Shown here: one piece after another, positions 8,255-28,898 of the stretch
Layout: every line of letters begins with the position of its first letter
Position numbering within the stretch: the first letter of the stretch is position 1
Assembly: GCA_022539475.1 (NCBI GenBank)
Contig: VCMS01000346.1
Coordinates: forward strand, 59,276 to 95,849
Direction: 5' to 3'
Length of the DNA stretch: 36,574 bases
Source: Gracilaria domingensis
Lineage: Eukaryota; Rhodophyta; Florideophyceae; Gracilariales; Gracilariaceae
Program-made: the position numbers and the translations under genes
Notes under the pieces: model-generated
The model's input: the letters and a program-made list of their open reading frames with translations, nothing else
Database searches by the model: none
Told to the model about the DNA's origin: nothing

Positions 8255-9039
8255 ACTCTTGAGCATGGTTTCTACGACATTCTTGTTGCTGGCGATGATG
8301 GACTGCCGCGCATCATGCGTTCCCGTCATGTCACATTTGACGAAGATTCATTCCCCGGTGTAGAGTACTTAGAGGAGTACATGGAGGATGAAAGCGCATC
8401 TGATACTGATTTCACCTTGGATTCAGAGTCTCGCAGCACCGACGAGGACTCAAGCACAGGTTTTGATTTCCATGATGAGCTCTGTGTTGATGATATCACC
8501 AATGCTCTCGATACCACGCCAGAAGAATCTGAACCTGATGCTGCAGTCGTTGAAGCTGCGCCAAGTGTCCAGTCAAGTAACAGTGACTCTGGTGCTGACG
8601 AGAGTGAAGATGATGGCCAAACCTTCGGGGAGAACTACATGGACACATATGCTCCAGTAGTTTCATTTAGTTTGGTGAGGTTCTTCCTCTACCTGACGCT
8701 GTGCTTGCAGATGTTTGTGCCTCAAGTCGATGTGAAGACTGCCTTCCTCAATGGCGACCTCGAGGAAGACGTGTGGGTCATGTCACCGCGTAGCGTTCCG
8801 GGTCTTGGTTCACGGTGCTACAAACTTCAGAAAGCCATGTATGGATTGAAGCAAGCCCATTTGGCATGGCATACTAAGTTCACACGTGATCTACACTCCA
8901 TTGGTTTCCAGGAACTACCGAGTGCTCCATGCGTCTTTCGGAGAGCTAGTGAGCATAATGGATACTGCTATATCCTTGTGTACGTCGATGACTTGCTCAT
9001 CTTGCCGCCCGCTGCCAAGGAACGATCTGGGATCTTGGA
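8255..9039 (+). pseudogene. Cop3 pol fragment 1 (integrase tail plus partial RT)
   Basis: Open from its first base: TLEHGFYDILVAGDDG leads into MRSRHVTFDEDSFPG at 8315, the typical end of a copia integrase region, then an acidic linker, then RT with TYAPVVSFSLVRFF, DVKTAFLNGDLEED and LVYVDDLL. The RT N-terminal part between linker and TYAPVV is missing, as in the second copy. It is cut at 9039 shortly after the YVDD box and fused to antisense Cop1 gag-pol DNA; the open frame that continues to 9127 is therefore chimeric. About 99.7% identical by eye to the inverse of 16743-17527. Confidence 0.85.
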
Positions 9040-10088
9040 CCGTAAGTTGGGCACGTGTACCACCTGCTTTAGCTTGCACTTACGCTTGGACCCTTCAACT
9101 GTCAGATCGAGCTCCACACTTCCGTGACCAACAGACTGCAACTTGGAATCATTGCCGATACTCACACCCGACGACACCTTTGTCTCGTACGTTTGGAATA
9201 TTGAGTCATCATAAGTCATGTGCGCAGTAGCTCCAGAGTCAACAATCCAGTCACTGTTAGTGGCCTTGTCGGCACCATTTGCAATGAGGCATACAAAGTC
9301 AGAATCGCTGCCGCCCGTACCTTGCTCATCGTTGAGCGCGGTATGTACACTTGAGCAGCATCGATCTGATCCTTGTTAGCCCCATCACGTTGCTTTTTGA
9401 AACAGTTCTTCTGGATATGACCCTTTATGCCACAATAGTAACACACAACCGACTTCAATGACTTCCTACGAAACTGGCGTCCCACGAGTGCTGCATCACC
9501 ACCGGACTCCTCCTTGGCACGATCACTCATACGTTGCTCTTCTTGCAATAGACGGCTCTTCACAAACTCCATGGTGAGTTCGCGATCTCCGATCGTGGTG
9601 TCAATTGCAACAATGAGGTGCTCAAAACGATCCGGAAGTCCACATAGAGCAGCCATAGCAATGTCCTCTTCTTCAACGTTGACGTCCATACTCTTGAGGT
9701 CGGAGGCCAAGTGCCGAACACGATTGATGAATTGCAACATCTTCTCGTCCTCGCGCATTTTGACAGAGTAGAAAGCACGTCTGGCGTTGATTCGGTTAAG
9801 AAGAGTCTTACGTTGAAACACATTGCAAATGGCCTTCCATGCGTCAGCAGCAGTCTCGATGTCTCGAATGTGATCCAAGTGCTCGTCGGCAAGCGTGAGT
9901 TTAATGATCGCTCTAGCCCTTTCGTCTCGGATTTGCCATTTTGCCAGTTCCTCTTCATCCGTGGGTGCAGAAGTGGTGAAATGGTTCTTGAGGTCTTTCA
10001 GTGCAAGTACGTATTGAATCTTCCGCTTCCAGGTGTGGAAGTTATCCTCACCCAACTTCTCGATCTTGAGCCCACTGAACGAATCCAT
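9040..10088 (-). pseudogene. gag-pol: gag plus partial protease of B1, frameshifted and truncated
   Basis: ATG at 10088-10086 (MDSFSGLKIEKLGED). Gag is complete through the CCHC knuckle. A 4-base deletion near 9353, relative to copy C, shifts the frame just before protease; WIVDSGATAHM is still encoded in the shifted frame. The sequence ends at HVPNLR, before the integrase zinc domain. No integrase or RT remains. Confidence 0.87.
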
Positions 10089-11330
10089 GTTGTAAGAAGG
10101 GAACAGGGGAGCAAATCAAATACGGCGGGTGGCGGGTAGACAGCAACATCAAACAACGACAGCAAACAACGACAGCAAACAACAGCAGCAAACAACAACA
10201 ACGGCAAACAACAACAACGGCAAACAACAACAACAACAACAACAAAAACTTCAATAGTCGGGACCACTGGCAGGAACTAAATTCCCAGTACCCTAGGGGA
10301 TCGGACCCCTGACCCCCGGAGACCCTCCGGGTAGGAAACGACTTCTGCAGTCTACCTCCTCCTGCGTTCCAGGAGAAGGCGCGTTGCTCTCTACGTAGCG
10401 TCCAAAGGATGAAAGGATGGTTAATGACTAAAGATATGTCTTCACCACTCAACCCAATCTGGTCTCTTGCAAGAACTTGCGCGACCTCGAAACTGCAGCT
10501 ACTATCACAAACCAAGGTACGCTCCTAACGAGCAGACAATAATGCCCACACGCGGCCTGATCCTGAAAAGGAGGTCAGCCTTCGGTACGTCGCCTCCCCG
10601 CTCAACCGAGGTTGCACGGATCAAAAGCTCGTTTCGGTTTGCCTTCACCACAGATCAAGAACCCGACACAAAGTCAGGTCAACAACAACAAAGGTCAGCC
10701 ACCCAAGTCCAACAGTGCGTCACGGCACCCCGTTCACTTCAGCACTCGCGGTACTACCAGGTCTTCCGACCGACACCGTGATCCGCCCCGAAGGACCGGT
10801 GGGAGCCCGCTAGACAGCACGTCCGCTTTGGTTCAAGCCGCCAGACTAACGTCCCCGATTGCTCGGATCAACCGCTTGTCGCTGGACCTCAGATGACAAC
10901 CCCAAACGCTGAGCACACACAGTGCACAGACTTCAACAACTGCTGAGCACACACGCAGTGCACAGACTTCAACAACAAATGGCCCTCAACCTCTCGGATC
11001 AGAACCCGCAACACGACGCGGGGATCCCAACAATAACGACAGAGGGAGACCAAACGAAACGGATAGCGATCGACAACACGGGCAACAACGAGCGCCCAAA
11101 CACAATAACGATACAGAATCAACGTCGAACCACTACCACCACAACGCCCTCAGAGAGGAACGCAAGACCGAAAGGAGAAGATCAACACCAACCAACAACA
11201 CGGTCAACACACCCGACGCAACGACGAAGAGAACGAGAAAGGAAAACAGCGAAGCGAATGAACGGCGGTGAGGGAGAGCGGCAATAGACGAGCGGTAACG
11301 GCAGAGGTCAGCGGGGCTGGGCCCATAACC
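10089..11330 (-). other. 5' leader and primer-binding site of B1
   Basis: Leader with CAA-rich tract (about 10145-10250 on plus), hairpin domain (about 10273-10408) and primer-binding site GCTGGGCCCATAACC at 11316-11330. Nearly identical to the B2 leader (14046-15287) and clearly diverged from the Cop1 leader of A, C and E. No coding is recognised. Confidence 0.78.
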
Positions 11331-12109
11331 TGATGGAGGTTATAGCTGGAAAGGGAAGGTTGAGAGAAAGGATGGGGGGGAATGAAAGGAAGTTCGCCAG
11401 CTCTGGCTCGGAATTTACTTCGAGGTGCTCGAGTTACCGCCTATATAGAACTACTTTGCGCAACCATCGCAAACCTCCAACTCCAAGCAATACCTAAACC
11501 ACTAGCTAGAGACACTCAATACTACCAATCATCTCCTAACATAACATCGTAACACTCCCACACTATCATGGCAGCTTACAACAACAAAGCACAACAGTGC
11601 ACAACAGTGCACAACAACTTACTTGCCTACACATAACCTTGACCATGCACAGATTCACATAGTGCCAACACACTGTAATCCCTACACCACACCATAACAG
11701 TTACGTACAAGCTCACCAACAACACTTCACCACAAACGTACTCCAAGTCCTACGTCACCAGCAACACCACACTGTAATCCTCTTGACACCGCATCAACTC
11801 TTCACCATAGTGCCCAAGTTACACCAAGCTGTCCTACATGTCCACGTACATACGTGTGTACCCTGTGCATCCTGTACAGTATGCTCAGTGTACTAGCTAC
11901 ACACGTGTACCCTGGAAACAACCCATTAGCACCACAACACTTGTACCAACCACAATGCATATGACCATTTGCAGTGGCCAATCAGAAGCTCGTTTCACGT
12001 TCAGTTTGCGCAGAGGCGCATATGCGCTTTTCCAACGGCACCCTCCAAAACAGCCCATGCACCCCAGCACTTTTGGTTTTCAGTGACAGCACAGGGTCAA
12101 CATCCAACA
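11331..12109 (-). repeat. Cop1b LTR (5' LTR of B1)
   Basis: 779-bp LTR, plus-strand start TGATGGAGGTTATAGC and end CAACATCCAACA. TATA box at 11442-11447; palindrome and inverted CCAAT kept. Homologous along its length to Cop1 LTRs with many small differences. Confidence 0.9.
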
Positions 12110-12783
12110 AAAGACTCGTTCTGAATACAACCAGATCCAGGAAACCAAGTAGAAAACCAAAGAGGGAAACACCAAAGTAGCTTTGACAAACAAAAATACA
12201 AGCAGAGTGAGGGACTCAATGCTTATGTTACACAAAGAGGGTAAAGGCTGGAGTGGAGTATTCTCAACACTCAACAGCGAGGGCGCCAGCGGAGACCTTG
12301 TAACCAGGTCTACAACGCTCGTCGTGACGCGTCCCGTACGCGATCACAGGCGGAGTTCGGGTACTCGACGCCTGGAGTATACTCACGGGTGAGACAGAAC
12401 TCAACCCGGAAAGAAAAAGAAGAAGAAGAAGCAGCGGGTCCACTGGTAGGATCTAATATCCGGTTACTCTAGAGGTCCGAACCTCTGGTCCCTGATTACT
12501 GTCTCCAGGTGAGGCACGAGTTCTTCTTGACCTACCCTGCTCTGCGTACTTCAGAGCAAGGGGCTTTACAATCCCTACGAGACGTCCCAGGGAGGTTAGT
12601 AGCCAAAGATATGCGTTCACCAGTTAGCCCCTGCTAGTCGCTTGCGAGAAATCAGCGCGGTCCTTCTGCTCGCTCGCTCGCTCGCCTACCTGTCGCAAGA
12701 AAACAAAACTTCGTAGAATCCAAAAGAGAAATCAGTAGAAGAGCGTGACGTCTGCGAAGAGTCGACGCTCTGGGCCCATAACC
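12110..12783 (-). other. Cop4 leader with hairpin domain and primer-binding site
   Basis: Primer-binding site CTGGGCCCATAACC at 12770-12783. The hairpin domain (12449-12593) is homologous to the Cop1 domain but with different stem sequences that still pair. It lies only about 190 bases from the primer site, against about 950 in Cop1, so the Cop4 leader lacks most of the Cop1 spacer. A short GCTC repeat lies at about 12668-12684 and a purine tract at about 12411-12432. The part from 12110 to 12410 holds nothing I recognise. Confidence 0.7.
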
Positions 12784-13512: not shown

Positions 13513-14045
13513 CTCTTCACAAACTCAATGGTGAGTTGGCGATCTCTGATCGTGGTGTCAATTGCAACAATGAGGTGCTCAAAACGTTCCGGAAGTCCAC
13601 ATAGAGCGACCATGGCAATGTCCTCTTCTTCAACGTTGACGTCCATACTCTTGAGGTCGGAGGCCAAGTGCCGAACACGATTGATGAATTGTAACATCTT
13701 CTCGTCCTCGCGCATCTTGACAGAGTAGAAGGCACGTCTGGCGTTGATTCGGTTCAGAAGAGTCTTGCGTTGGAACACATTGCAAATGGCGTTCCATGCG
13801 TCAGCAGCAGTGTCAATGTCACGAATGTGATCCAAGTGCTCGTCGGCAAGCGTGAGTTTAATGATCGCTCTAGCCCTTTCGTCTCGGATTTGCCATTTTG
13901 CCAGTTCCTCTTCATCCGTGGGTGCAGAAGTGGTGAAATGGTTCTTGAGGTCTTTCAGTGCAAGTACGTATTGAATCTTCCGCTTCCAGGTGTGGAAGTT
14001 ATCCTCACCCAACTTCTCGATCTTGAGCCCACTGAACGAATCCAT
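13513..14045 (-). pseudogene. gag-pol: N-terminal gag of B2
   Basis: ATG at 14045-14043; encodes about the first 178 residues of Gag (MDSFSGLKIEKLGED to LTIEFVKS), without the zinc knuckle. The frame then runs by chance through the Cop4 LTR to 13215, giving a 276-codon chimera. That tail shows no known domain and is not considered a protein. Confidence 0.85.
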
Positions 14046-15287
14046 GTTGTAAGAAGGGAACAGGGGAGCAAATCAAATACGGCGGGTGGCGGGTAGACAG
14101 CAACATCAAACAACGACAGCAAACAACGACAGCAAACAACAGCAGCAAACAACAACAACGGCAAACAACAACAACGGCAAACAACAACAACAACAACAAC
14201 AAAAACTTCAATAGTCGGGACCACTGGCAGGAACTAAATTCCCAGTACCCTAGGGGATCGGACCCCTGACCCCCGGAGACCCTCCGGGTAGGAAACGACT
14301 TCTGCAGTCTACCTCCTCCTGCGTTCCAGGAGAAGGCGCGTTGCTCTCTACGTAGCGTCCAAAGGATGAAAGGATGGTTAATGACTAAAGATATGTCTTC
14401 ACCACTCAACCCAATCTGGCCTCTTGCAAGAACTTGCGCGACCTCGAAACTGCAGCTACTATCACAAACCAAGGTACGCTCCTAACGAGCAGACAATAAT
14501 GCCCACACGCGGCCTGATCCTGAAAAGGAGGTCAGCCTTCGGTACGTCGCCTCCCCGCTCAACCGAGGTTGCACGGATCAAAAGCTCGTTTCGGTTTGCC
14601 TTCACCACAGATCAAGAACCCGACACAAAGTCAGGTCAACAACAACAAAGGTCAGCCACCCAAGTCCAACAGTGCGTCACGGCACCCCGTTCACTTCAGC
14701 ACTCGCGGTACTACCAGGTCTTCCGACCGACACCGTGATCCGCCCCGAAGGACCGGTGGGAGCCCGCTAGACAGCACGTCCGCTTTGGTTCAAGCCGCCA
14801 GACTAACGTCCCCGATTGCTCGGATCAACCGCTTGTCGCTGGACCTCAGATGACAACCCCAAACGCTGAGCACACACAGTGCACAGACTTCAACAACTGC
14901 TGAGCACACACGCAGTGCACAGACTTCAACAACAAATGGCCCTCAACCTCTCGGATCAGAACCCGCAACACGACGCGGGGATCCCAACAATAACGACAGA
15001 GGGAGACCAAACGAAACGGATAGCGATCGACAACACGGGCAACAACGAGCGCCCAAACACAATAACGATACAGAATCAACGTCGAACCACTACCACCACA
15101 ACGCCCTCAGAGAGGAACGCAAGACCGAAAGGAGAAGATCAACACCAACCAACAACACGGTCAACACACCCGACGCAACGACGAAGAGAACGAGAAAGGA
15201 AAACAGCGAAGCGAATGAACGGCGGTGAGGGAGAGCGGCGATAGACGAACGATAACGGCAGAGGTCAACGGGGCTGGGCCCATAACC
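14046..15287 (-). other. 5' leader and primer-binding site of B2
   Basis: Same organisation as the B1 leader: CAA-rich tract (about 14102-14207), hairpin domain (about 14230-14365), primer-binding site at 15273-15287. Only about one substitution (near 14420) is seen against B1 up to about 15238, then several more close to the primer site. Confidence 0.78.
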
Positions 15288-16064
15288 TGATGGAGGTTAT
15301 AGCTGGAAAGGGAAGGTTGGGAGAAAGGATGGAGGGAATGAAAGGAAGTTCGCCAGCTCTGGCTCGGAATTTACTTCGAGATGCTCGAGTTACCGCTTAT
15401 ATAGAACTGCTTTTCGCAACCATCGCAAACCTCCAACTCCAAGCAATACCTAAACCACTAGCTAGAGACACTCAATACTACCAATCATCTCCTAACATAA
15501 CATCGTAACACTCCCACACTATCATGGCAGCTTACAACAACAAAGCACAACAATTCACAACAGTGCACAACAACTTACGTGCCTACACATAACCATGACC
15601 ATGCACAGATTCACATAGTGCCAACACACTGTAATCCCTACACCACACCATAACAGTTACGTACAAGCTCACTAACAACACTTCACCACAAACTCACTCC
15701 AAGTCCTACGTCACCAACAACACCACACTGTAATCCTCTTGACACCGCATCAACTCTTCACCATAGTGGCCAAGATACACCAAGCTGTCCTACATGTCCA
15801 CGTACATACGTGTGTACTCTGTGCATCATGTACAGTATGCCCAGTGTACTAGATACACACGTGTACCCCGGAAACAACCCATGAGCGCCACAACACTTGT
15901 ACGAACCACAATGCATATGACCATTTGCAGTGGCCAATCAGAAGCCCGTTTCACGTTGAGTTTGCGCAGAGGCGCATATGCGCTTTTCCAACGGCACCCT
16001 CCAAACAGCCCATGCTCCCCAGCACTTTTGGTTTTCAGTGACAGCACAGGGTCAACATCCAACA
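15288..16064 (-). repeat. Cop1b LTR (5' LTR of B2)
   Basis: 777-bp LTR, TGATGGAGG... to ATCCAACA on plus. TATA box 15398-15403; palindrome and inverted CCAAT present. Differs from the B1 LTR at many positions, in contrast with the nearly identical leaders. Confidence 0.9.
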
Positions 16065-17527
16065 ATAGGAACAGCCCGGGGACTATCCAGACCAATCTCA
16101 GAGAGTACACGCCTCATCCACACAACCTCCTGAGCAGCCATGGTTAGGGCGTAGTACCTGGCCTCAGCAGTAGACAGAGCAACCGAAGCCTGCTTCTTGG
16201 AACCAAAAAATACCACTGCAGATCCGAACTTGATCATGTACTCAGACATCTTGCGATCGCAGGTGTCACCCGCGTAGTCCGAGTCCACATAGGCTTGCAT
16301 GTCCAGGGATCCAGCCTCGTAGTTCAAGCCATGTCTGCGAGTTCCTTGCAGGTAACGCAACACTCGCTTCGCCGCCCTGTGGCAGTATGCCATGGGGTTG
16401 CTCTGGAAACGAGCGAGGATGAGCACCGGGGCCAGAATGTCCACGCGCGTGCGCAGTGCCAAGTACAGCAGAGACCCGATCATCTGCTGATACAGCTGCA
16501 CATCTTGCGGTGACTTGTCTTCCTCGGCAGCGAGACCCGAGAAGAAGGACTCTACCATTGGACTACGAGCTGGCTTAGAGTTGTCCAGAACGAAGCGTCG
16601 CAGAATTCCTTCGATGTAGAGCGTCTGACCAAGGTGCACTCCATTGACACGAACATCGTCATCAATGCTCCATGTCAACTCTACACCGAGGTAGAGTGTC
16701 ACTTTGTTCTCAACACGAATCTCGTACAACCGCTTGAGCTCCTCCAAGATCCCAGATCGTTCCTTGGCAGCGGGCGGGAAGATGAGCAAGTCATCGACGT
16801 ACACAAGGATATAGCAGTATCCATTATGCTCACTAGCTCTCCGAAAGACGCATGGAGCACTCGGTAGTTCCTGGAAACCAATGGAGTGTAGATCACGTGT
16901 GAACTTAGTATGCCATGCCAAATGGGCTTGCTTCAATCCATACATGGCTTTCTGAAGTTTGTAGCACCGTGAACCAAGACCCGGAACGCTACGCGGTGAC
17001 ATGACCCACACGTCTTCCTCGAGGTCGCCATTGAGGAAGGCAGTCTTCACATCGACTTGAGGCACAAACATCTGCAAGCACAGCGTCAGGTAGAGGAAGA
17101 ACCTCACCAAACTAAATGAAACCACTGGAGCATATGTGTCCATGTAGTTCTCCCCGAAGGTTTGGCCATCATCTTCACTCTCGTCAGCACCAGAGTCACT
17201 GTTACTTGACTGGACACTTGGCGCAGCTTCAACGACTGCAGCATCAGGTTCAGATTCTTCTGGCGTGGTATCGAGAGCATTGGTGATATCATCAACACAG
17301 AGCTCATCATGGAAATCAAAACCTGTGCTTGAGTCCTCGTCGGTGCTGCGAGACTCTGAATCCAAGGTGAAATCAGTATCAGATGCGCTTTCATCCTCCA
17401 TGTACTTCTCTAAGTACTCTACACCGGGGAATGAATCTTCGTCAAATGTGACATGACGGGAACGCATGATGCGCGGCAGTCCATCATCGCCAGCAACAAG
17501 AATGTCGTAGAAACCATGCTCAAGAGT
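16065..17527 (-). pseudogene. Cop3 pol fragment 2 (integrase tail, RT, partial RNase H)
   Basis: One open frame over the whole fragment (about 487 codons). It starts at the LTR boundary with TLEHGFYDILVAGDDG, then SRHVTFDEDSFPG, an acidic Ser/Asp/Glu-rich linker, RT (TYAPVVSF, DVKTAFLNGDL, LVYVDDLL), and RNase H up to YVDSDYAGD and ALSTAEARYYAL, ending at DSPRAVPI before the last catalytic Asp region. The RT segment upstream of TYAPVV (normally about 100 residues, with the KARLVA motif) is deleted in frame. No LTR, primer-binding site or polypurine tract of its own is visible. It is a fragment of another copia lineage bounded by Cop1 and Cop1b LTRs. Confidence 0.87.
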
Positions 17528-18114
17528 TGATAGAGGTTGAAGCTGAAAGGGAAGGTTGAAGAAAGGATAGGGGAATGAAGGGAAGTTCGCCAGCTCTGGC
17601 TCGGATTTTACTTGGAGGTGCTCGAGTCACCACTTATATAGAACTACTTTGCGACACCATCGCACAACTCCAACTCCAAGCAATACCTAAACCACTAGCT
17701 AGAGACACCTCAATACTACCAATCAATCTTCTAACATAACATAGGCTAACACTGCCACACTACATGACCAGCTTACAACAACAAAGCACAACAACGCACA
17801 ACACTGCACAACCGTGCACATCAAGTTACGTGCCTACACATAGACCATGACCATGCACAGATTCACATCAGTGTCAACACACTGTTTTAATCCGTTATCT
17901 GACACCATAACAGTAACTGTACAAGCTCACCAACTAACACGTCACCACAAACTCACTCCAAGTTTCCTACGTCACCAACCAATACCACAGTTAAACCTCT
18001 TGACAGCGCATCTACTCTTCACCACTAGTGCCAAAGTCACATCAAGCTGGTCCGTACATGTCCACGTTACATACGTGTCTGTTACCCTGTGCATTCATGT
18101 ACAGCATGCCCAGC
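17528..18114 (-). repeat. Cop1 LTR, left piece of C's 3' LTR (split)
   Basis: First 587 bases on plus (sense 3' part) of a Cop1 LTR. It stops after ATGCCCAGC where CopN2 begins; the remainder resumes at 22618. Between about 17707 and 18100 it differs from every other LTR copy by more than a dozen small insertions and substitutions. Confidence 0.88.
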
Positions 18115-19105
18115 TGTTAGAGGTTATAGCTGGATCGGCAAAGTTGACATGAGGCAAGATGGGGGATGCAGGGAAATTCGCCAGCTCTGGCTCAGATTTA
18201 CTTGGAGGTGCTTGAGTCACAACCTATATAGCACTTCTTCGCTACTCCATCATGGGACTCCAACTCTGACCAACATGCAACTCACTAACCAGAGACACTC
18301 AATACTACCAATCATCTACAGACATAACATGGTAACAGTGCCAAACTGCTTACAACAGCAGTGCACAACAACGCACAACAGTGTACAACAGTGCACAACA
18401 ATTCAGTACACTACTGCACAGCAGTGCACAACAATGCACAACAATGCACACCAATGTAGTAGCCATGCACGTCCCTGACAGTGTACCGACACATTTCTAC
18501 AGCACACCACGAGCACCACACATCAACGCAGTCAACAATATGACAGCTCACCATAGTAACACGACCATGCATACACACAATGCAACACCTCACCATCATG
18601 ACCAGCCATGCTTACGGAACATCACATCACACTTCACGTGTTGCTGGCACGCTGTAATCTGTACACCACACCGTAGAGTGTACGTGCCAGATACCCAAGT
18701 CCCACATCATCAACAAGTACCTGTAAACCACATGACGTCAGTCACTTAGCTGCAACATGTTCCATTCATCCATACACACACATTTGCATGTAGCACAACT
18801 CAAACATGGTGTAAACTTCACAACACTGACAGTGCTGCCACCTGTACCTTGTGTGCACATACATAGCCTTCAACCCTGTACTTCATGACCACTGTACAAC
18901 CTGTCATCGTTGTACCTTGTGGTCATCCCAGCTGAACGATAGCGTTCCAGTGTAGCCATAAACGTTCAACCCATACTGAGTATACCACACAGCAACGTAG
19001 TATACCAAACAGAACAACATCAATCTCGGTTTCACGTATCAAGGTACCATTCTAGACTCCACACATCTCAACTGCTTGATGTCAGTGACAGCATGACTTC
19101 CAACA
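18115..19105 (-). repeat. CopN2 3' LTR
   Basis: 991 bp, TGTTAGAGGTTATAGC to ACTTCCAACA on plus. TATA box 18225-18230. Parts around the TATA box and in U3 are homologous to the Cop1 LTR; the rest is unlike it. Contains short GTGCACAACAA-type repeats near 18360-18450. Confidence 0.88.
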
Positions 19106-19115
19106 CCCTCCCTCT
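19106..19115 (-). promoter_or_regulatory. Polypurine tract, CopN2
   Basis: CCCTCCCTCT on plus (AGAGGGAGGG in sense) directly before the 3' LTR, followed inward by TGTTACTGACTTCAAG, which resembles the end of the Cop1 internal region. Confidence 0.75.
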
Positions 19116-19530
19116 GTTACTGACTTCAAGCAACCAGCGCTCCTGGTCAAGTACATGCTAAGTAACAAGTCGGGCAGTCAAGAAACCAATGTTACTGCAA
19201 ATAAACCTTACGATGGCCAACGGTGACAACCAAACATCAAGTGCAGTTAGTGTGTGTCCAAGCCCACGGCTGTACCGTTCTACCAGTATACCAAGATCAT
19301 AGTTCTGTTCTGTACGATTCGGATGTTCTGGAAACACCCTCCTTTTGTCACACACTCTGAACTTCTTACTCATCCTTCGTATGGCAACGAAGACAACAGC
19401 TTCCGGTTCAAACAGATATCAACAACAGACAGTGAGAGCCTAAGTCTGAGGATGTTACTCTGACACCCTCCCTCTCTCACTGGCTTTGAACTTCTCTCGG
19501 AACCAAAATGCACCTCAGAGTCCTTCACAA
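19116..19530 (-). other. CopN2 internal region, 3' part, non-coding
   Basis: No gene is recognised. Two further degenerate copies of the polypurine-tract neighbourhood occur: ACACCCTCCTTTTGTC near 19338 and GACACCCTCCCTCTCTCACT near 19460, each followed by a (T)GAACTTCT-like string as at the real Cop1 3' end. Confidence 0.5.
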
Positions 19531-19536
19531 AAGGGA

Positions 19537-20502
19537 TCTAGACGTCCACAACTGACCACATTCTAGACACCGAAAACAAATGTTGCTCCGAGCATGTAAC
19601 ACATAACAACCTCTCGGAGCACCATTAATCACAGTACTTCAACCAGACATGCAAACACACGCAACCTTCTGATTCAAGACCGATTTTCTGAACACCGGAC
19701 ATGCAACAAGTAGCAACCTTCCAGTTCAACATCACCTTCGTAACAGCTGGACATGCAAAAGAGAGCAACCTTCCAGCTCAACAAATCTCTTCAAACAGCG
19801 GACATTCAAAATCACAGCAACCTTCCGCGAATAACACACAAAGAGAATTGCAACACAGGCATCCTGGACTTGCAAAATGACAACCTTCCAGGCCCCGTCC
19901 ATACAAAGTGATGTCCTACACACTCAGGCATGAAACACTTAAACTCCTGAGTCAAACAGCTCTTTCATTCACACCGGACATGCAACACATAGCAACTTCC
20001 AGTGGCAACAAATTGAAACAAAGAGCAAAAAAACATCACAAGCATGAAACAAACACTCAGGCATGAAACACTCAACCTCCTGAATCAAACAGCTCTTCCA
20101 TACACCGGACATACATACAAGTAGCAACCTCCCGGTAACATGAAAACAACATGGAGAGCAAAACACACATCACAAGTGATCAATAATACACTCAGGCATG
20201 AAACACTCAACCTCCTGAGTCAAACAGCTCTTCCATACACACCGGACATGCAACCAAATAGCAACCTTCCGGTACAACAGAAGTAAAGCGAAGAGCACAG
20301 CACACATCCCGGGCATACATAACGACAACCTTCTGAGCCTGCGTAAGGAAGTCACGATAACAACGGACAAGTAACATCTCAACTTTCCAAAGTTGATACA
20401 AAGAAGAGCTCAGACATGTTCAACAATAAACACCCAGGAAGTGTCATAAACGAATCTCACACACACAGTCTCAGGCAGGAAACACTCCACCTCCTGAACT
20501 GT
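19537..20502 (-). repeat. Degenerate tandem array of ~15 compensated hairpins in CopN2
   Basis: Units spaced about 50-100 bases apart, each a short inverted repeat around a 17-21-base loop, often CATGCAA...AGCAACCT. Arms on plus include 19584-19592/19613-19621 (9 bp), 19745-19751/19772-19778 (7), 19798-19802/19824-19828 (5), 19863-19868/19887-19892 (6), 19922-19928/19946-19952 (7), 20190-20196/20214-20220 (7), 20241-20246/20268-20273 (6), 20465-20475/20493-20502 (10, one bulge). Arm sequences differ between units (AGCTGGA, GCGGA, CCTGGA, ACTCAGG, ACCGGA) yet each pairs with its partner. A higher-order repeat of about 135 bases is visible (20025-20136 against 20157-20273). Confidence 0.75.
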
Positions 20503-20509
20503 AGCGAGA

Positions 20510-21628
20510 ATAACAACAACAAACTGCAAGCGATCGGGTGCATAAGGAACTAAGATTCCTGGTACCCTAGGGAGTCGGACCCCTGACCCCCGGAGACCCT
20601 CCGGGTAGGAAACGACTTTCTTCTGTCTACCTCCTCCTGCGTTCCAGGAGAAAGCGCGTCGCTCTCTACGAGACGTCCAGAGGATGGTTAGTGACCAAAG
20701 ATATGCCTTCACCAAGTTAAACCCTCTCTGGTCTCTTGCAAGAACTTGCGCGACCCTGATACTGCAGGTACTATGACAAACCGAGGTACGCTTCCAGCAA
20801 GCAAACAATCAAGTTCACAAGCGGCCTGATCCTGAAAAGGAGGTCAGCCTACGACACGTCGCCTCCCCGCACCACCGCAGCAGTACGGATCAAAAGCTCG
20901 TTTCAGTTTGTCTTCCCAACAGATCAAGAACCCAACACACAGTCAGGTCACACACAACAAAGGTGAACCACCCCTGTTCGATGCAGTACGTCACGGCACC
21001 CCGTCAACTTCAGCCTCGCGGTACTACCAGGTCTTCCGACCGACACCGTTATCTGCCCCGAGGACCGGTGGGAGCCCGCTCGACAGTGCGTCCGAATTGG
21101 TTCAAGCCGCCAGACTAACGTCCCCGATTGCTCGGATCAACCGCTCGTCGCACCGAAACCCAAGTGATCACCACAAATGCCGAGCACACAGGCAGTGCCC
21201 GGACTTCAACGAAAAAACGAATGCTGAGCACAACACACAAGTGCACAGACTTCAACGACAACGGTACTCAACCCCTCGGATCAGAACCCGCAAACACGAC
21301 ACGGGGATCACAACAACGAAAACAGAGGCGAGAAACCAACAAAGCGGATAGCGATCGACGAAAACGAAAATGAACTAGAAACCAAACAGAATCACGAAAG
21401 TAGAACAGCGTCGAGCCACTACCACCAGAACGCCCTCAGGGAGGAACGCAAACCAAAAGGGAAATACAACACCACCAAACCGGTCAACGACAAGAAACAC
21501 GACGGAAAAAACATCGAAAACATCAACAACGGCGTTCAACAACACGGACGGCGGTGAGGGAGAGCGGCGAAAGGGAAACCTCATGACGAACGACAACGGC
21601 AGAGGTCAGCGGGGCTGGGCCCATAACC
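20510..21628 (-). other. CopN2 leader and primer-binding site
   Basis: Homologous to the Cop1 leader: hairpin domain at about 20545-20682, A/C-rich spacer, and primer-binding site GCTGGGCCCATAACC at 21614-21628 next to the 5' LTR. No gag ATG follows; the leader leads straight into the hairpin array. No coding is recognised. Confidence 0.78.
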
Positions 21629-22617
21629 TGTTAGAGGTTATAGCTGGGATCGGAAAGTTGACATGAGGAAGGATGGGGGGATGCAAGGGAAGTTCGCCAG
21701 CTCTGGCTCAGATTTACTTGGAGGTGCTTGAGTCACACCTATATAGCACTTCTTCGCTACTCCATCATGGACTCCAACTCTGACCAACATGCAACTCACT
21801 AACCAGAGACACTCAATACTACCAATCATCTACAGACATAACATGGTAACAGTGCCAAACTGCTTACAACAGCAGTGCACAACAACGCACAACAGTGTAC
21901 AACAGTGCACAACAATTCGTACACTACTGCACAGCAGTGCACAACAATGCACAACAATGCACACCAATGTAGTAGCCATGCACGTCCCTGACAGTGTACC
22001 GACACATTTCTACAGCACACCACGAGCACCACACATCAACGCAGTCAACAATATGACAGCTCACCATAGTAACACGACCATGCATACACACAATGCAACA
22101 CCTCACCATCATGACCAGCCATGCTTACGGAACATCACATCACACTTCACGTGTTGCTGGCACGCTGTAATCTGTACACCACACCGTAATGTGTACGTGC
22201 CAGATACCCAAGTCCCACATCATCAACAAGTACCTGTAAACCACATGACGTCAGTCACTTAGCTGCAACATGTTCCATTCATCCATACACACACATTTGC
22301 ATGTAGCACAACTCAAACATGGTGTAAACTTCACAACACTGACAGTGCTGCCACCTGTACCTTGTGTGCACATACATAGCCTTCAACCCTGTACTTCATG
22401 ACCACTGTACAACCTGTCATCGTTGTACCTTGTGGTCATCCCAGCTGAACGATAGCGTTCCAGTGTAGCCATAAACGTTCAACCCATACTGAGTATACCA
22501 CACAGCAACGTAGTATACCAAACAGAACAACATCAATCTCGGTTTCACGTATCAAGGTACCATTCTAGACTCCACACATCTCAACTGCTTGATGTCAGTG
22601 ACAGCATGACTTCCAAC
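21629..22617 (-). repeat. CopN2 5' LTR
   Basis: About 989 bp, TGTTAGAGGTTATAGC to ACTTCCAAC; the final A expected from the 3' LTR is missing. TATA box 21740-21745. Nearly identical to the 3' LTR apart from scattered small differences, so the insertion is young. Confidence 0.86.
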
Positions 22618-22819
22618 CCTGTTAGCTACACACGTCCTGAAACAACAAGCGCCAAACATGTACAAACAATGCAATGACCATTGCAGTAGCCAATCAGAAG
22701 CCCGTTTCACGTTGAGTTTGCGCAGAGGCGCATATGCGCTTTCCAACGGCACCCTCCAAAACAGCCCATGCTCCCAGCACTTTTGGTTTTCAGTGACAGC
22801 ACAGGGTCAACATCCAACA
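22618..22819 (-). repeat. Cop1 LTR, right piece of C's 3' LTR (split)
   Basis: Sense 5' part of the LTR (starting TGTTGGATGTTGACCC at 22819 in sense). It continues the piece at 17528-18114; together about 789 bp, the normal LTR length. Several small deletions occur next to the CopN2 junction (TGTTAGCTACAC where other copies read TGTATTAGCTACAC). Confidence 0.87.
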
Positions 22820-22839: not shown

Positions 22840-25800
22840 TCAAACTTCTATGTGGATCACACCACCGGCTTCGCGGAACCTCTCGTGCTTCACTCGCGCA
22901 AGCGGCTTATTCAGCATGTCGGCAACCATGGAATCCGTCGGGCAGTAGAACAGCACAATCGACTTGGCCTGCAGAGCTTCTCGAGTGAAGTGGAACCGAA
23001 TTTCAATATGCTTGGTTCGCCTGTTCACCACTCCATTTCGAGCAAGGTCAATGCTGCCCTGGTTGTCAACATACATGGGAGTTGGTTCAACCAGCAGCTT
23101 TACAGACCCGTCTGCTTCCATGCCAATCACACTGCCAATGCCGTTCCAAAGTCGCCTAAGCCAGATCGCCTCCTTGGTGCCAGAGCACAAGCTCACGTAC
23201 TCAGCCTCTGCACTCGACAGAGCAACTACCTCCTGTTGACGAGACGACCACGACACAGCACCACCGCACATCATGAACAAGTATCCACTAGTGGACTTGC
23301 GGTTGGCAACATCGCCAGCCCAGTCAGAGTCCACATAGCCGTGCAGTTGCAAATCGGTGCTGGAGCCATACGTCAACCCGAACGTGGTAGTGCCATTGAG
23401 GTAGCGAAGAACACGCTTGACCGCCTTCCAGTGAGTGTTTCCCGGCTTCTCAACATACTTGGCCAGCTTAGCCACAGCATATGAGATGTCTGGACGAGTT
23501 CCCACAGACAGATACATGAGGCAGCCAATCGCCTGACGATACGGTACATGCGTGAGCACTTCCTCCTCAACAGACAAGTCCACACCGCACTCCATAGGAG
23601 TGTCAACGGGTTTCGACAGCTGCATGCCAAATCGCTCCAGGACCTTGTTCGTGTACGCTGACTGAGTCAAGTACAGCTCTCGCTTGGTTCTGTCTCGATG
23701 GATTTCAAATCCAAGAACCATGCGAGCTTCTTTGAGGTCCTTCATGCGGAAACGACTTGACAGCTCTGCCTTCACACGTTCCACGGTTTTCATGCTCGGA
23801 CTCGCAATCAGCAAGTCGTCAACATACAGAGCAATGATAACCAAGAAACCCAGTATGATCCCGGTGTAGACACACTCGTCTGCGTCATTCGGCTTGAGGT
23901 GCATTTCACCAACAAGGAAGGCGTATATCTTGGCGTGCCACTGTCTTGGTGCTTGTCTAAGCCCATAGATCGCTTTCTTCAGTCGGCACACCAAGTCCTC
24001 CTTTCCCTGCTGTGTGAATCCCATTGGCTGCTCCATGTACACTGTCTCGTCAAGGTCACCGTTCAGAAAGGCAGTCTTCACATCCATCTGGTGCAAGTGG
24101 AAGTCTCGTACGGCAGTCACTGACAGGATCATTCTGATGGATGTGAACTTCACCACAGGTGCATAAGTCTCTGAGAAGTCCACACCCTCGATCTGCAGGA
24201 AGCCTCTTGCAACCACACGAGCCTTGTAACGCACTGTCGGTTCACCAGATGACGAAGCCTCATACTTCTGTACATACACCCACTTGGACGAAATCACGTT
24301 GCTGTCTGCTGGCCTTGGCACTAGATCCCATGTGTCATGCTCCATCAATGACTCGTACTCACTCTTCATCGCCTTCTTCCAAGCTTCGGAATCAGGACGT
24401 GACACTGCGTCACCGTACGACGAAGGAGTATCATCACTGGCTGTAAGGAAAGCACTGGCACCACGCCACCACGAGGATGGCGTCTTTCTCTGACGTGTGG
24501 ATCTACGAAGGGGCTGCGTCTCTGTCACTTCCGGCTCATCTTGTGGAACTGGTGTGGTGTCTTCATCCGTACTGGCATTCGTGGTACTCTCATGAGAAGC
24601 TGGTGCAGAAGGATCATCTTCAGAATGATCGGCGGATGTGTCGGAGGTTGGGGCTTCAGCAGATACCGACTTGTCGACCAAGTCGATATCCGCATAGTCC
24701 TCGTCTTCAGAGTGCTCGTCACTTTCAGTTGCAGAGCACTCGTCAAACCTCACATCTCGTGACACAATCACCTTCTTCTTCTGGCTGTCCCACAACTTGT
24801 ACCCGTGGGAGCCTGAAGTGTACCCAATGAAGATGGCCTCCACTGCACGCTCTTCCAGCTTCTTCAACTTGTGATCAACCACCTTGTACCAGCAACGGCT
24901 ACCAAACACACGCAGATTGCTCAGATCAGGCTTCTGTCCATGCCACAGCTCAAACGGAGTCACGTCACTCGGAAGCGCTTTGCAGGTCACTCTGTTGCGC
25001 ACATACACAGAAACATTCAGAGCCTCAGCCCAAAAGCTTTTTGGCACATTCTTGTGATGCAACATTGACCTGACCAAGTCCATGAGTGTGCGGTTGAACC
25101 TCTCGGCAAGCCCGTTCTGCTGTGGATTATAAGGCACAGTTCGCTGATGCTCAATACCGTACTGCTCAAGCTTTTCGGAGAACCGATTGGACAAGTACTC
25201 ACCACCATTGTCAGTGCGTAATGCACGCAACACACTCTTGCGAGCGGTGATGGTTAACACTTTCCTGCCCATCTGGTTCTCCACAAACCTGAGCCACTTG
25301 ATGAACATCCGGAACACCTCATCCTTCGTCTTGAGCATGTACAAGAAGCAGTAGCGGCTGTGGTCATCGATGAATGTGACAAAGTAGTGCGAGCCTCCCA
25401 AGGACTTCACGTTCACTGGACCCGATATATCAGAGTGTACCAGGTCCAGTACGTGTTCAGCTCGTTCCCCCCCTTGCTTGGGAGTCGGAGCACGGGTTGC
25501 TTTGCCCACTACACAAGAGCCACACACATCCAGCTTCTGAGCCACATCCACATTCAGACCTGACACAACACCGTTTCGAGCCATCTGCTTGATGCCTTCC
25601 ACATTCACATGAGCCATTCGAGCATGCCAAAGAGACAAGTCTGACACAAGCGCACTGTCCGTGTCCGTGAACTGATCTGCAGCAGTGCAAAGGTAGTACA
25701 GGTCTTTGACGCGGCGCCCAACGGCAACCACTTTTGACCCCTTGTACACACATACCTTTTCTTTGTCAAACACTACCGTGCAGCCCAGATCACAAATCTG

Positions 25801-26874
25801 TGACACAGACAACAAATGGTACCGTAAGTTGGGCACGTGTACCACCTGCTTTAGCTTGCACTTACGCTTGGACCCTTCAACTGTCAGATCGAGCTCCACA
25901 CTTCCGTGACCAACAGACTGCAACTTGGAATCATTGCCGATACTCACACCCGACGACACCTTTGTCTCGTACGTTTGGAACATTGAGTCATCATAAGTCA
26001 TGTGTGCAGTAGCTCCAGAGTCAACAATCCAGTCACTGTTAGTGGCCTTGTCGGCACCATTCGCAATGAGGCATACAAAGTCAGAATCGCTGCCGCCCGT
26101 ACCTTGCTCATCGTTGAGCGCGGTATGTACACTTGGGTGAGCAGCATCGATCTGATCCTTGTTAGCCCCATCACGTTGCTTTTTGAAACAGTTCTTCTGG
26201 ATATGACCCTTTATGCCACAATAGTAACACACAACCGACTTCAATGACTTCCTACGAAACTGGCGTCCCAAGAGTGCAGCATCACCACCGGACTCCTCCT
26301 TGGCACGATCACTCATACGTTGCTCTTCTTGCAATAGACGGCTCTTCACAAACTCCATGGTGAGTTGGCGATCTCCGATCGTGGTGTCAATTGCAACAAT
26401 GAGGTGCTCAAAACGATCCGGAAGTCCACATAGAGCAGCCATAGCAATGTCCTCTTCTTCAACGTTGACGTCCATACTCTTGAGGTCGGAGGCCAAGTGC
26501 CGAACACGATTGATGAATTGCAACATCTTCTCGTCCTCGCGCATTTTGACAGAGTAGAAGGCACGTCTGGCGTTGATTCGGTTAAGAAGAGTCTTACGTT
26601 GAAACACATTGCAAATGGCCTTCCATGCGTCAGCAGCAGTCTCGATGTCTCGAATGTGATCCAAGTGCTCGTCGGCAAGCGTGAGTCCAATGATAGCTCT
26701 AGCCCTTTCGTCGCGGATTTGCCACTTTACCAGTTCCTCTTCATCCGTGGGTGCAGAAGTGGTGAGATGGTTCTTGAGGTCTTTCAGTGCAAGTACATAC
26801 TGAATCTTCTGCTTCCAAGTATGGAAGTTATCCTCACCCAACTTCTCGATCTTGAGCCCACTAAACGAGTCCAT
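22840..26874 (-). CDS. gag-pol: Intact Ty1/copia Gag-Pol polyprotein, 1344 aa
   Basis: Single open frame for capsid protein and replication enzymes. Domains by residue: Gag 1-~200 (helical, UBN2-like); CCHC knuckle C216-C219-H224-C229; protease D285-S-G; integrase zinc site H417, H422, C451, C454; integrase core D482, D555, E591 with exactly 35 residues between the last two; acidic Ser/Thr-rich linker ~710-790; RT ~850-1090 with D931 (DVKTAFLNGDL) and YVDD 1017-1020; RNase H ~1175-1310 with D1182/D1184, E1223 and D1270. The frame is open upstream to an ATG at 27033, adding a Leu/Val/Cys-rich 53-residue stretch, but that extension is out of frame with gag in B1/B2, so the MDSFSGL start is chosen. 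Product is expected in cytoplasmic virus-like particles. No frameshift separates gag and pol, as in Drosophila copia. Confidence 0.95.
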   Translation of the reverse strand: MDSFSGLKIEKLGEDNFHTWKQKIQYVLALKDLKNHLTTSAPTDEEELVKWQIRDERARAIIGLTLADEHLDHIRDIETAADAWKAICNVFQRKTLLNRINARRAFYSVKMREDEKMLQFINRVRHLASDLKSMDVNVEEEDIAMAALCGLPDRFEHLIVAIDTTIGDRQLTMEFVKSRLLQEEQRMSDRAKEESGGDAALLGRQFRRKSLKSVVCYYCGIKGHIQKNCFKKQRDGANKDQIDAAHPSVHTALNDEQGTGGSDSDFVCLIANGADKATNSDWIVDSGATAHMTYDDSMFQTYETKVSSGVSIGNDSKLQSVGHGSVELDLTVEGSKRKCKLKQVVHVPNLRYHLLSVSQICDLGCTVVFDKEKVCVYKGSKVVAVGRRVKDLYYLCTAADQFTDTDSALVSDLSLWHARMAHVNVEGIKQMARNGVVSGLNVDVAQKLDVCGSCVVGKATRAPTPKQGGERAEHVLDLVHSDISGPVNVKSLGGSHYFVTFIDDHSRYCFLYMLKTKDEVFRMFIKWLRFVENQMGRKVLTITARKSVLRALRTDNGGEYLSNRFSEKLEQYGIEHQRTVPYNPQQNGLAERFNRTLMDLVRSMLHHKNVPKSFWAEALNVSVYVRNRVTCKALPSDVTPFELWHGQKPDLSNLRVFGSRCWYKVVDHKLKKLEERAVEAIFIGYTSGSHGYKLWDSQKKKVIVSRDVRFDECSATESDEHSEDEDYADIDLVDKSVSAEAPTSDTSADHSEDDPSAPASHESTTNASTDEDTTPVPQDEPEVTETQPLRRSTRQRKTPSSWWRGASAFLTASDDTPSSYGDAVSRPDSEAWKKAMKSEYESLMEHDTWDLVPRPADSNVISSKWVYVQKYEASSSGEPTVRYKARVVARGFLQIEGVDFSETYAPVVKFTSIRMILSVTAVRDFHLHQMDVKTAFLNGDLDETVYMEQPMGFTQQGKEDLVCRLKKAIYGLRQAPRQWHAKIYAFLVGEMHLKPNDADECVYTGIILGFLVIIALYVDDLLIASPSMKTVERVKAELSSRFRMKDLKEARMVLGFEIHRDRTKRELYLTQSAYTNKVLERFGMQLSKPVDTPMECGVDLSVEEEVLTHVPYRQAIGCLMYLSVGTRPDISYAVAKLAKYVEKPGNTHWKAVKRVLRYLNGTTTFGLTYGSSTDLQLHGYVDSDWAGDVANRKSTSGYLFMMCGGAVSWSSRQQEVVALSSAEAEYVSLCSGTKEAIWLRRLWNGIGSVIGMEADGSVKLLVEPTPMYVDNQGSIDLARNGVVNRRTKHIEIRFHFTREALQAKSIVLFYCPTDSMVADMLNKPLARVKHERFREAGGVIHIEV

Positions 26875-28102
26875 GATGTAAGAGAGGAACTGCAGCGAAC
26901 CAGATAATGCGGTGGCAGACAGGCGGCAATAGCAAACGACAGCGGTAAACAACAACAGCAAACAACAACAAACAACAACAAACAACAATAACAACAAACA
27001 ACAACAACAATAAAGATGAATAGTCGGGTGCAAAAGGAACTAAGATTCCTGGTACCCTAGGGAGTCGGACCCCTGACCCCCGGAGACTCTCCGGGTAAGA
27101 AACGACTTCTGCAGTCTACCTCCTCCTGCGTTCTAGGAGAAGGTGCGTCGCTCTCTACGAGACTTCCAGAGGATGGTTAATGACCGAAGATATGCCTTCA
27201 CCAAGTAAAACCCTCTCTGGTCTCTTGCAAGAACTTGCGCGACCCTGAAACTGCAGGTACTATGACAAACCGAGGTACGCTTCTAGCAAGCAAACAATGA
27301 AGTTCACAAGCGGCCTGATCCTAAAAAGGAGGTCAGCCTACGACACGTCGCCTCCCCGCACCACCGAAGCAGTACGGATCAAAAGCTCGTTTCAGTTTGC
27401 CTTCGCCACAGATCAAGAACCCAACACAAAGTCAGGTCAGCAACAATAAAGGTGGACCACCTCCTGTCCAGTGCAGTACGTCACGGCACCCCGTCCACAA
27501 ATGCCCCCGCGAAGAATACCAGGTCTTTCGACCGACACCGTTATCTGCCCCTAAGGACCGGTGGGAAACTCGCAAGACGGAACAAATGCTTTGGTTCAAG
27601 CCGCCAGACTAACGTCCCCGATTGCTCGGATCAACCGCTCGTCGCACCGAAACTCAAGTGATCACCACACCTGCCGAGCACACACGCAGTGCACGGACTT
27701 CAACAGAAACGAATGCTGAGCACAACACACAAGTGCACAGACTTCAACAACACAAGGTCCTCAACCTCTCGGATCAGAACCCACAAAGACGACGTGGGGA
27801 TCCCAACAATAATAACAGAGGGAGACCAAACGAAGCGGATAGCGATCGACAACACGGGCAACAACGAGCGCCCAAACACAATCACGATAGAAAGTCAACG
27901 TCGAACCACCACCAACAAAACGCCCTCAGGGAGGAACGAACGACCGAAAGAAGAAAGTCAACACCGACCAACGATACGGTCAACACACCCGACGCAACGG
28001 AGAAGGGAACGAAAGGGAAAACAGCGAAGCGGATGAACGGCGGTGAGGGAGAGCGGCGAGAATCAGCGGCGAGAGGGAACGATAACGGCAGAGGTCAGCG
28101 GG
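26875..28102 (-). other. 5' leader of copy C
   Basis: About 1.23 kb of non-coding leader. TTG-rich tract in sense next to gag (about 26946-27012 on plus), hairpin domain 27035-27171 (stems 27035-27039/27046-27050, 27059-27062/27071-27074, 27079-27085/27089-27095, 27123-27127/27135-27139, 27153-27156/27168-27171), then an A/C-rich spacer on plus. Nothing coding is recognised. Confidence 0.78.
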
Positions 28103-28117
28103 GCTGGGCCCATAACC
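28103..28117 (-). promoter_or_regulatory. Primer-binding site, copy C
   Basis: GCTGGGCCCATAACC on plus, directly beside the 5' LTR end; matches the initiator tRNA-Met anticodon arm, not the tRNA 3' end. Confidence 0.85.
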
Positions 28118-28898
28118 TGATAGAGGTTGAAGCTGAAAGGGAAGGTTGAAGAAAGGATAGGGGAATGAAGGGAAGTTCGCCAGCTCTGGCTCGGAATTTA
28201 CTTGGAGGCGCTCGAGTCACCGCTTATATAGAACTACTTTGCGACACCATCGCACAACTCCAACTCCAAGCAATACCTAAACCACTAGCTAGAGACACTC
28301 AATACTACCAATCATCTTCTAACATAACATGGTAACACTGCCACACTATCATGACAGCTTACAACAACAAAGCCAACAACCACAACAGTGCACAACCGTG
28401 CACATCAAGTTACGTGCCTACACATAACCATGACCATGCACAGATTCACATAGTGCCAACACACTGTAATCCGTACCGCCACCATAACAGTTACGTACAA
28501 GCTCACCAACTAACACGTCACCACAAACTCACTCCAAGTCCTACGTCACCAACAATACCACAGTGTAAACCTCTTGACAGCGCATCTACTCTTCACCATA
28601 GTGCCAAAGTCACATGAAGCTGTCCTACATGTCCACGTACATACGTGTGTACCCTGTGCATCATGTACAGTATGCCCAGTGTATTAGCTACACACGTGTA
28701 CCCGGAAACAACCCATTAGCGCCACAACACTTGTACAACCACAATGCATATGACCATTTGCAGTAGCCAATCAGAAGCCCGTTTCACGTTGAGTTTGCGC
28801 AGAGGCGCATATGCGCTTTTCCAACGGCACCCTCCAAAACAGCCCATGCTCCCCAGCACTTTTGGTTTTCAGTGACAGCACAGGGTCAACATCCAACA
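28118..28898 (-). repeat. Cop1 LTR (5' LTR of copy C)
   Basis: 781 bp. TATA box 28225-28230, palindrome 28805-28816, inverted CCAAT about 28766-28776. It shares subtype markers with E's 3' LTR (GGAGGCGCTCGAGTCACCGC) rather than with C's own 3' LTR (GGAGGTGCTCGAGTCACCAC). Confidence 0.92.

Follow-up and report, generated by a model that had tools for sequence, protein, structure and literature searches.

A non-coding element nested in a copia element

The window, by which we mean the whole stretch of 36,574 nucleotides of Gracilaria domingensis DNA that was analysed, is a nest of Ty1/copia elements. One of them, CopN2 (18115-22617, minus strand), is a non-autonomous Ty1/copia-type LTR element of 4.5 kb whose sense strand is the minus strand, as judged from its primer site, its purine tract, and the direction of gag-pol rather than from the wobble pairs discussed below. 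Comparison of its LTRs places the sense 5' LTR at 21629-22617 and the sense 3' LTR at 18115-19105 (both minus); they are about 990 bp each, are 98.8% alike, and enclose an internal part of about 2.5 kb. A 15-nt primer binding site (21614-21628, minus), complementary to nucleotides 26-40 of tRNA-Met(CAT), starts at the LTR end. The anticodon arm of tRNA-Met(CAT) was found at four places in the genome by a short pattern search; three of the four were scanned, and all three were called tRNA-Met and are identical in sequence. The putative polypurine tract (19106-19115, minus) adjoins the 3' LTR and was assigned by inspection, from composition and place only. Three occurrences of the purine tract with its flank (plus strand ACACCCTCC...) lie in the 3' portion of CopN2 (19103-19126, 19334-19357, and 19463-19486), as if extra polypurine tracts lay inside the element.

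CopN2 had been described from its sequence as an element with no protein, and this description is supported: none of the five overlapping ORFs of at least 120 aa has a Pfam match, and the longest sense ATG frame has 71 aa. A simple motif script found the ends of 14 CopN2 copies, four of which have a perfect 5-bp target-site duplication; for a 15th copy no end was found, and in some of the other 10 the script settled on an internal LTR boundary or on masked flanking sequence. With the same script no target-site duplication was seen for the copy in the window.

CopN2 sits in the 3' LTR (17528-18113 plus 22622-22819) of an autonomous copia element, which is likely to be the helper kind for CopN2 and is called the helper here. 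The open gag-pol frame of the helper (22840-27039, minus; 1399 aa), identified by ORF and alignment and by Pfam, encodes a copia-type gag domain and a CCHC zinc knuckle. The helper has the same tRNA-Met primer site at its own LTR end. The two elements are alike in about 290 bp at the sense end of their LTRs (77%) and in the leader (20509-21628, minus; about 83%), the aligned regions being 20509-21915 and 27000-28408 (83.3%). No further likeness between them was seen over 150 bases at E 1e-20. The array of hairpins in CopN2 begins where the likeness of the leaders stops, the end of hairpin 1 being 7 bases from 20509. The likeness stops in an (AAC)n stretch (20509-20530 and 26948-27010), where template switching or recombination could plausibly have taken place. 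Elsewhere in the window there are two copia pieces with shortened gag frames (9039-12113 and 13513-16068), about 98% alike (9556-12113 versus 13513-16068), which apparently belong to another mosaic or derivative family.

Anatomy of the hairpin array

The array consists of 14 hairpin slots (19584-20502), all on the minus strand, of which 12-13 are well formed. The sequence-only reading had counted about 15 units; the array is real, and the count is corrected to 14 by a covariance model built from 11 units. In the window this model finds the 14 array hairpins, 13 of them at E <=2.4e-5, and its only further match up to E 5 (16096-16135, E 1.1) is at chance level. A descriptor for the two-helix form has 12 matches in the window, all on the minus strand and all within the array, and none on the plus strand. 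Both the descriptor and the covariance model identify hairpins 3 (20240-20274), 4 (20190-20220), 5 (20103-20137, the most variable between copies), 6 (20055-20085), 8 (19922-19952), 9 (19862-19893), 10 (19796-19830), 11 (19745-19778), 12 (19693-19726), 13 (19641-19674), and 14 (19584-19621, with a 9-bp stem). The covariance model identifies hairpins 1 (20466-20502, with a degenerate core and a bulged stem; E 2.4e-5), 2 (20307-20338, degenerate; E 0.068), and 7 (19972-20004, with one core G missing). There is no Rfam match in the window at the gathering score.

The hairpins follow a common plan. A variable outer stem of 5-9 bp (longer and bulged in slot 1) leads to an internal loop, in most units AGGU (5') opposite UG (3'). 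This is followed by a 3-bp inner helix, itself variable (UGC/GCA, UGU/ACA, or UGA/UCA in regular units), and by a free apical loop of 5-9 nt. A conserved core (AGGU/UG and the inner helix) is combined with outer stems that vary across units. The loops had been described as alike; local folding replaces the single open loop of that description with the internal loop, the 3-bp inner helix, and the apical loop. The individual stems that had been listed were all read from the sequence at the same positions, and the five mismatches within arms are C-A or A-C on the plus strand, as claimed.

With stem lengths chosen by hand, 140 pairs were annotated over the 14 slots, and 132 of them are Watson-Crick or G.U. 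When the sense sequences are folded in isolation, the outer stem is predicted in 13 of 14 slots (not in slot 2) and the full annotated two-helix fold in eight (slots 3, 4, 6, 7, and 11-14).

Covariation between hairpin units

Eleven of the 14 units were aligned. Units 1 and 2 (degenerate) and 7 (misaligned by MAFFT) were left out, which favours the paired percentage. In the alignment, pairing holds in 95.5% of the pair cells, and both sides have changed in 8 of the 10 pairs. Shuffling of the 3' letters lowers the paired percentage to 73.7 +/- 2.8%, and a shift of the partners by 1-3 columns lowers it to 22-45%; the covariation score is 0.776, versus 0.319 +/- 0.047 for shuffles and 0.045-0.123 for slid partners. 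None of 500 shuffles reaches the observed paired percentage, the observed double-change cells, or the observed covariation score; the observed count of doubly changed pairs is reached by 16 of them, and that of pair types by 9.

Shuffles can be misleading where the units are related. Unconstrained evolution on the unit tree was therefore simulated as well, starting from a perfectly paired root. In 400 simulations whose stem divergence (0.449) was matched to that observed (0.445), 58.2% of cells pair on average and 80.0% at most, and the covariation score does not exceed 0.425. Even at a far lower divergence (0.198), one of 400 simulations reaches the observed percentage and none reaches the score. 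The sequence-only reading held that the stems differ and are compensated by the partner arm, and named a phylogeny-matched null as the check. With none of the 400 simulations at matched divergence equalling the observed pairing, and with a score well above the simulated maximum, the compensation is confirmed.

Copies of CopN2 in the genome

The genome searched for copies comprises 77.9 Mb in 680 contigs. A host serine hydroxymethyltransferase encoded in it is 100% identical, over 95% of the query, to one recorded for Gracilaria domingensis, which makes the host that red seaweed or a very close relation of it; a protein search with a stretch of pol gave no host name. A DNA search gave at least 45 CopN2 matches at 90-100% identity (40 of 62 candidates scored). 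Two patterns of the core with its closing pairs have 260 and 124 matches, versus 0 and 8 for the reversed patterns; among the matches listed for the first (100 of 260), 98 were read as adjoining others in arrays. In viral contigs, a collection from which records of this genome may be missing, the hairpin matches, one in each of 87 contigs and none in an array, were taken as chance. The sequence of 39 loci and then of 12 more was fetched (51 besides the window, some with shortened arrays), and the covariance model has 625 matches in them at E <=0.1. The array is found in 51 of 51 other loci, which had been chosen by array matches. By a fixed descriptor, 35 of the 38 arrays of at least 960 nt (the window included and three identical duplicates kept) hold 11-14 hairpins: 14 in six arrays, 13 in thirteen, 12 in ten, 11 in six, and 10, 8, and 7 in one each. 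The same descriptor finds no antisense hairpin in any of the 52 arrays. In four copies (L041, L042, L043, and L045) overlapping alignments imply an extra double-hairpin unit of about 135 bp, so array length varies.

Two CopN2-type LTR matches over 900 bp were found in 15 of 39 loci. L040 was set aside from dating, as its two LTRs face opposite ways (93.9%); the same-orientation pairs are 99.6-100% identical in 14 of 14 cases. Judged by these LTR pairs, and for the copies with two full LTRs that such dating covers, CopN2 has moved recently. In L011 (contig C422) a CopN2 LTR runs straight into the internal region of an adjoining copy, and neighbours appear to share an LTR head to tail.

Exchange of LTRs with the helper

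Four array copies among the 39 flanked loci (L012, L018, L030, and L031) have helper-type LTRs at both ends and a CopN2 leader (97.4-98.5%). About 780 bp of these LTRs corresponds to the helper LTR (92-97%), and just 164-228 bp at the sense start is CopN2-like; by their sequence they are a composite LTR subtype. Their LTR pairs are 100% identical over 1024 bp in L012 and over 945 bp in L031, 99.7% in L018, and 95.2% in L030. Six other copies (L026, L029, L032, L033, L037, and L044) have one helper-type LTR and no full CopN2-type LTR. Array copies with helper LTRs at both ends mean that the array and the helper LTR have been combined, and array elements with either LTR type have moved recently. 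The combination fits template switching between co-packaged RNAs and hence suggests mobilisation by the helper; other recombination is also possible. The shared leader, the primer site, and the helper-type LTRs on some copies are indirect signs that CopN2 may be mobilised by helper proteins.

The helper copy in the window has no hairpin of the covariance model, and five other copia regions with more diverged gag have no match to it. These regions were considered as alternative helpers and rejected, since they are related to the helper already described and belong to its kind, either in full or with deletions. The absence of hairpins from the helper in the window and from the five regions indicates that the array is not a signal common to the helper's own RNA. 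In addition, contig C117 of G000 has four gag matches 4.0 kb apart (183391, 187400, 191409, and 195417), all at 96%, which suggest a tandem array of a copia derivative.

Selection on pairing among copies

The copies are too alike for slot-by-slot covariation. Therefore, variants private to one copy, which mostly reflect decay after insertion, were compared with variants shared by at least two copies, which have passed through moving lineages. The test used 49 distinct copies, three identical duplicates having been removed. Variants that break pairs number 57 private and 16 shared, those in the AGGU/UG core 30 and 9, those that keep pairs 20 and 15, apical variants 23 and 16, and spacer variants 126 and 93; 4 private and 6 shared variants at pairs with an unpaired majority were set aside. 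Relative to the spacer, shared variants are depleted for pair-breaking (p = 0.002) and core (p = 0.03) but not for pair-keeping changes (p = 1). Breaking versus keeping variants give p = 0.04, a value that rises to 0.13 when unit 5 is left out and to 0.28 when units 1 and 2 are left out as well. For breaking and core variants together (87 private, 25 shared) against spacer and apical variants together (149, 109), p = 0.00025; the value is 0.0009 without the hard-to-align stretch 19990-20240, and 2.4e-5 with the 35 near-complete arrays only, or 0.0046 for these arrays if shared means three or more copies. These p-values are approximate, because variants are linked within copies.

The statistics thus support a depletion of pair-breaking and core variants among the shared ones, with pair-keeping, apical, and spacer variants not depleted. 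The caveat is that the depletion fades (OR 1.7-1.8, p = 0.10-0.13) without the six most diverged copies, which supply many of the private changes. What the units and the copies support, subject to this caveat, is a structure that is compensated between units and kept in moving lineages, its conserved part being the internal loop and the inner helix, not the stem sequence. Of the selection on RNA folding proposed earlier, the part concerning intrastrand pairing is upheld by the variant test, with the same reservation about old copies; the part concerning RNA and strand is not.

The strand of the fold

It had been argued that C-A and A-C mismatches on the plus strand, which become G.U in sense RNA, point to folding of the sense RNA. 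This argument fails. The array is rich in A and C on the plus strand, and composition alone predicts that 81-83% of the G.U-or-A.C mismatches would be sense G.U; 13 of 17 are. Across copies, variants giving sense G.U (16 private, 7 shared) and sense A.C (19, 8) fare alike (p = 1). The comparison of breaking with keeping variants gives p = 0.046 by antisense rules versus 0.040 by sense rules. As the results with both sets of rules are alike, the variants do not resolve RNA from DNA, nor one strand from the other. The fold z-score was discarded as evidence of strand, the antisense value being the stronger (-6.08 versus -3.31; 20 shuffles each). The sense hairpin is predicted to be the more stable in 14 of 14 units (in slot 1 by only 0.1 kcal/mol), and composition contributes to this. 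The natural reading is that the hairpins would act in sense RNA, because the element is transcribed that way.

Possible role of the array

Packaging, dimerisation, and binding of Gag or of a host protein had been put forward from the sequence as possible roles. We tentatively favour the reading that the array is a multivalent RNA docking platform in a protein-free copia parasite, with helper Gag as the most likely partner. CopN2 RNA would start like helper RNA (LTR end, primer site, and leader), so the helper could provide for its priming and probably its packaging. In the place of gag-pol CopN2 carries about 14 modular hairpins, each displaying much the same AGGU/UG internal loop between two helices, with a stem that may have any sequence provided that pairing is preserved. 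One RNA-binding protein could then dock at many sites in the sense RNA. Helper Gag is the candidate, since its zinc knuckle could bind unpaired G residues, and docking would give CopN2 RNA an edge over helper RNA in being taken into particles. Against Gag, the searched helper copies lack the hairpin, and the shared leader could suffice for packaging. Note that the copies with helper-type LTRs strengthen the link with the helper and not the docking role, the probability of which they leave unchanged.

A further-reaching form of this idea, that the protein genes were replaced by an amplified row of about 14 covarying hairpins serving as multivalent bait for helper Gag (or for a host carrier) and that CopN2 outcompetes the helper in this way, is possible but doubtful. 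If true, the array would be an RNA device for competition by a non-coding element. CopN2 bears on the wider question of how LTR elements without proteins survive alongside their helpers. It is a compact case, with recently moving copies, a leader and a primer site in common with the helper, exchange of LTRs, and a repeated RNA motif with signs of selection, and what the parasite gains from its array is open to experiment through loss or disruption of the array. The hairpin itself, a structural RNA module with no match in Rfam, can be set beside known protein-binding hairpins.

The hairpins may instead be bound by a host RNA-binding protein that serves nuclear export, stability, or the fate of an unspliced and untranslated RNA. 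Constitutive transport elements of some retroviruses offer a comparison. The same anatomy and the same evidence of selection apply to this rather unlikely alternative, and helper RNA without the motif fits a need peculiar to RNA without translation. It is countered by the fact that no host gene with the motif was recognised, nearly all of the core matches listed lying in arrays.

An origin without function is improbable but has a known basis. Correction of quasi-palindromes is a known mutational process, in which template switching by reverse transcriptase or during repair turns near-palindromes into palindromes, and it would yield matched arms that look compensated without selection. Such correction, however, should also erase the AGGU/UG mismatches, which persist in nearly all aligned units, and the finding that pair-breaking variants are common as private and rarer as shared variants looks like loss of unfit lineages, not correction.

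We consider it quite improbable that the structure acts in DNA or cDNA (as a cruciform, in a single-stranded intermediate of reverse transcription, or in recombination or integration) rather than in RNA. The equal fate of sense-G.U and sense-A.C variants agrees with it, inverted repeats fold on either strand, and the z-score is better on the plus strand. However, sense hairpins are predicted to be more stable in all units, though composition helps, and 7-bp arms with gaps of about 20 nt make poor cruciforms. Least probable of all is a neutral, degenerate tandem repeat, in which a palindromic unit of 52-135 bp was amplified by slippage or unequal exchange and its pairing inherited, as the tandem periods of 52 and 133 bp and the extra unit implied in four copies would allow; stem columns differ by 44.5% between units, yet 95.5% of cells pair, where drift from a paired ancestor would leave about 58%.

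Comparison with known systems

The retroviral psi signal and the coat-protein hairpins of phage MS2 display a small unpaired motif to a Gag or capsid protein. The proposed docking hairpins of CopN2 would work in a like manner. Unlike them, CopN2 has about 14 paralogous copies of its motif in a non-coding body, which are absent from the searched helper copies. A packaging signal is expected in the helper genome too, and neither the helper copy in the window nor the five copia regions contain the hairpin.

The best reading of CopN2, from its sequence features, is a LARD-like element with a new RNA module. LARD elements (e.g., Sukkula of grasses) have a non-coding core with conserved RNA structure [PMC7215508], and they resemble CopN2 in that they are LTR elements which possess a core domain but encode no protein. 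Of the LARD features, CopN2 has the two LTRs, the target-site duplication (in 4 of 14 copies, the window copy not among them), the lack of coding capacity, the primer site and the polypurine tract (the tract by inspection), and, within one genome, a conserved structured non-coding domain. It differs from LARD elements in its Ty1/copia-type leader, its red algal host, its LTRs of about 0.99 kb, its length of 4.5 kb, and its row of small modular hairpins; in the portions of the LARD literature examined, a tandem hairpin row is not described. TRIM elements, including Cassandra, are likewise protein-free LTR elements, but assignment of CopN2 to them was rejected, since in TRIMs the LTRs are short and the internal domain is nearly absent, and CopN2 has LTRs of about 990 bp and an internal part of about 2.5 kb. 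A conserved fold is predicted for Cassandra RNA [PMC7215508]; it is an LTR-to-LTR super-hairpin with 5S rRNA regions, whereas CopN2 has a row of hairpins.

Among the literature matches listed (titles and the starts of abstracts, with subscription literature mostly outside), nothing was found that describes covarying hairpins lined up in tandem in an element of this kind. The enod40 RNAs, whose stem-loops are reported to come from transposons and to resemble tandem repeats [PMC10578108], are a different case from the CopN2 array. For Drosophila copia, a half-tRNA is reported as primer [PMC5371799]. CopN2 is similar in having a primer site complementary to an internal stretch of a tRNA, here read from the genome of a red alga.
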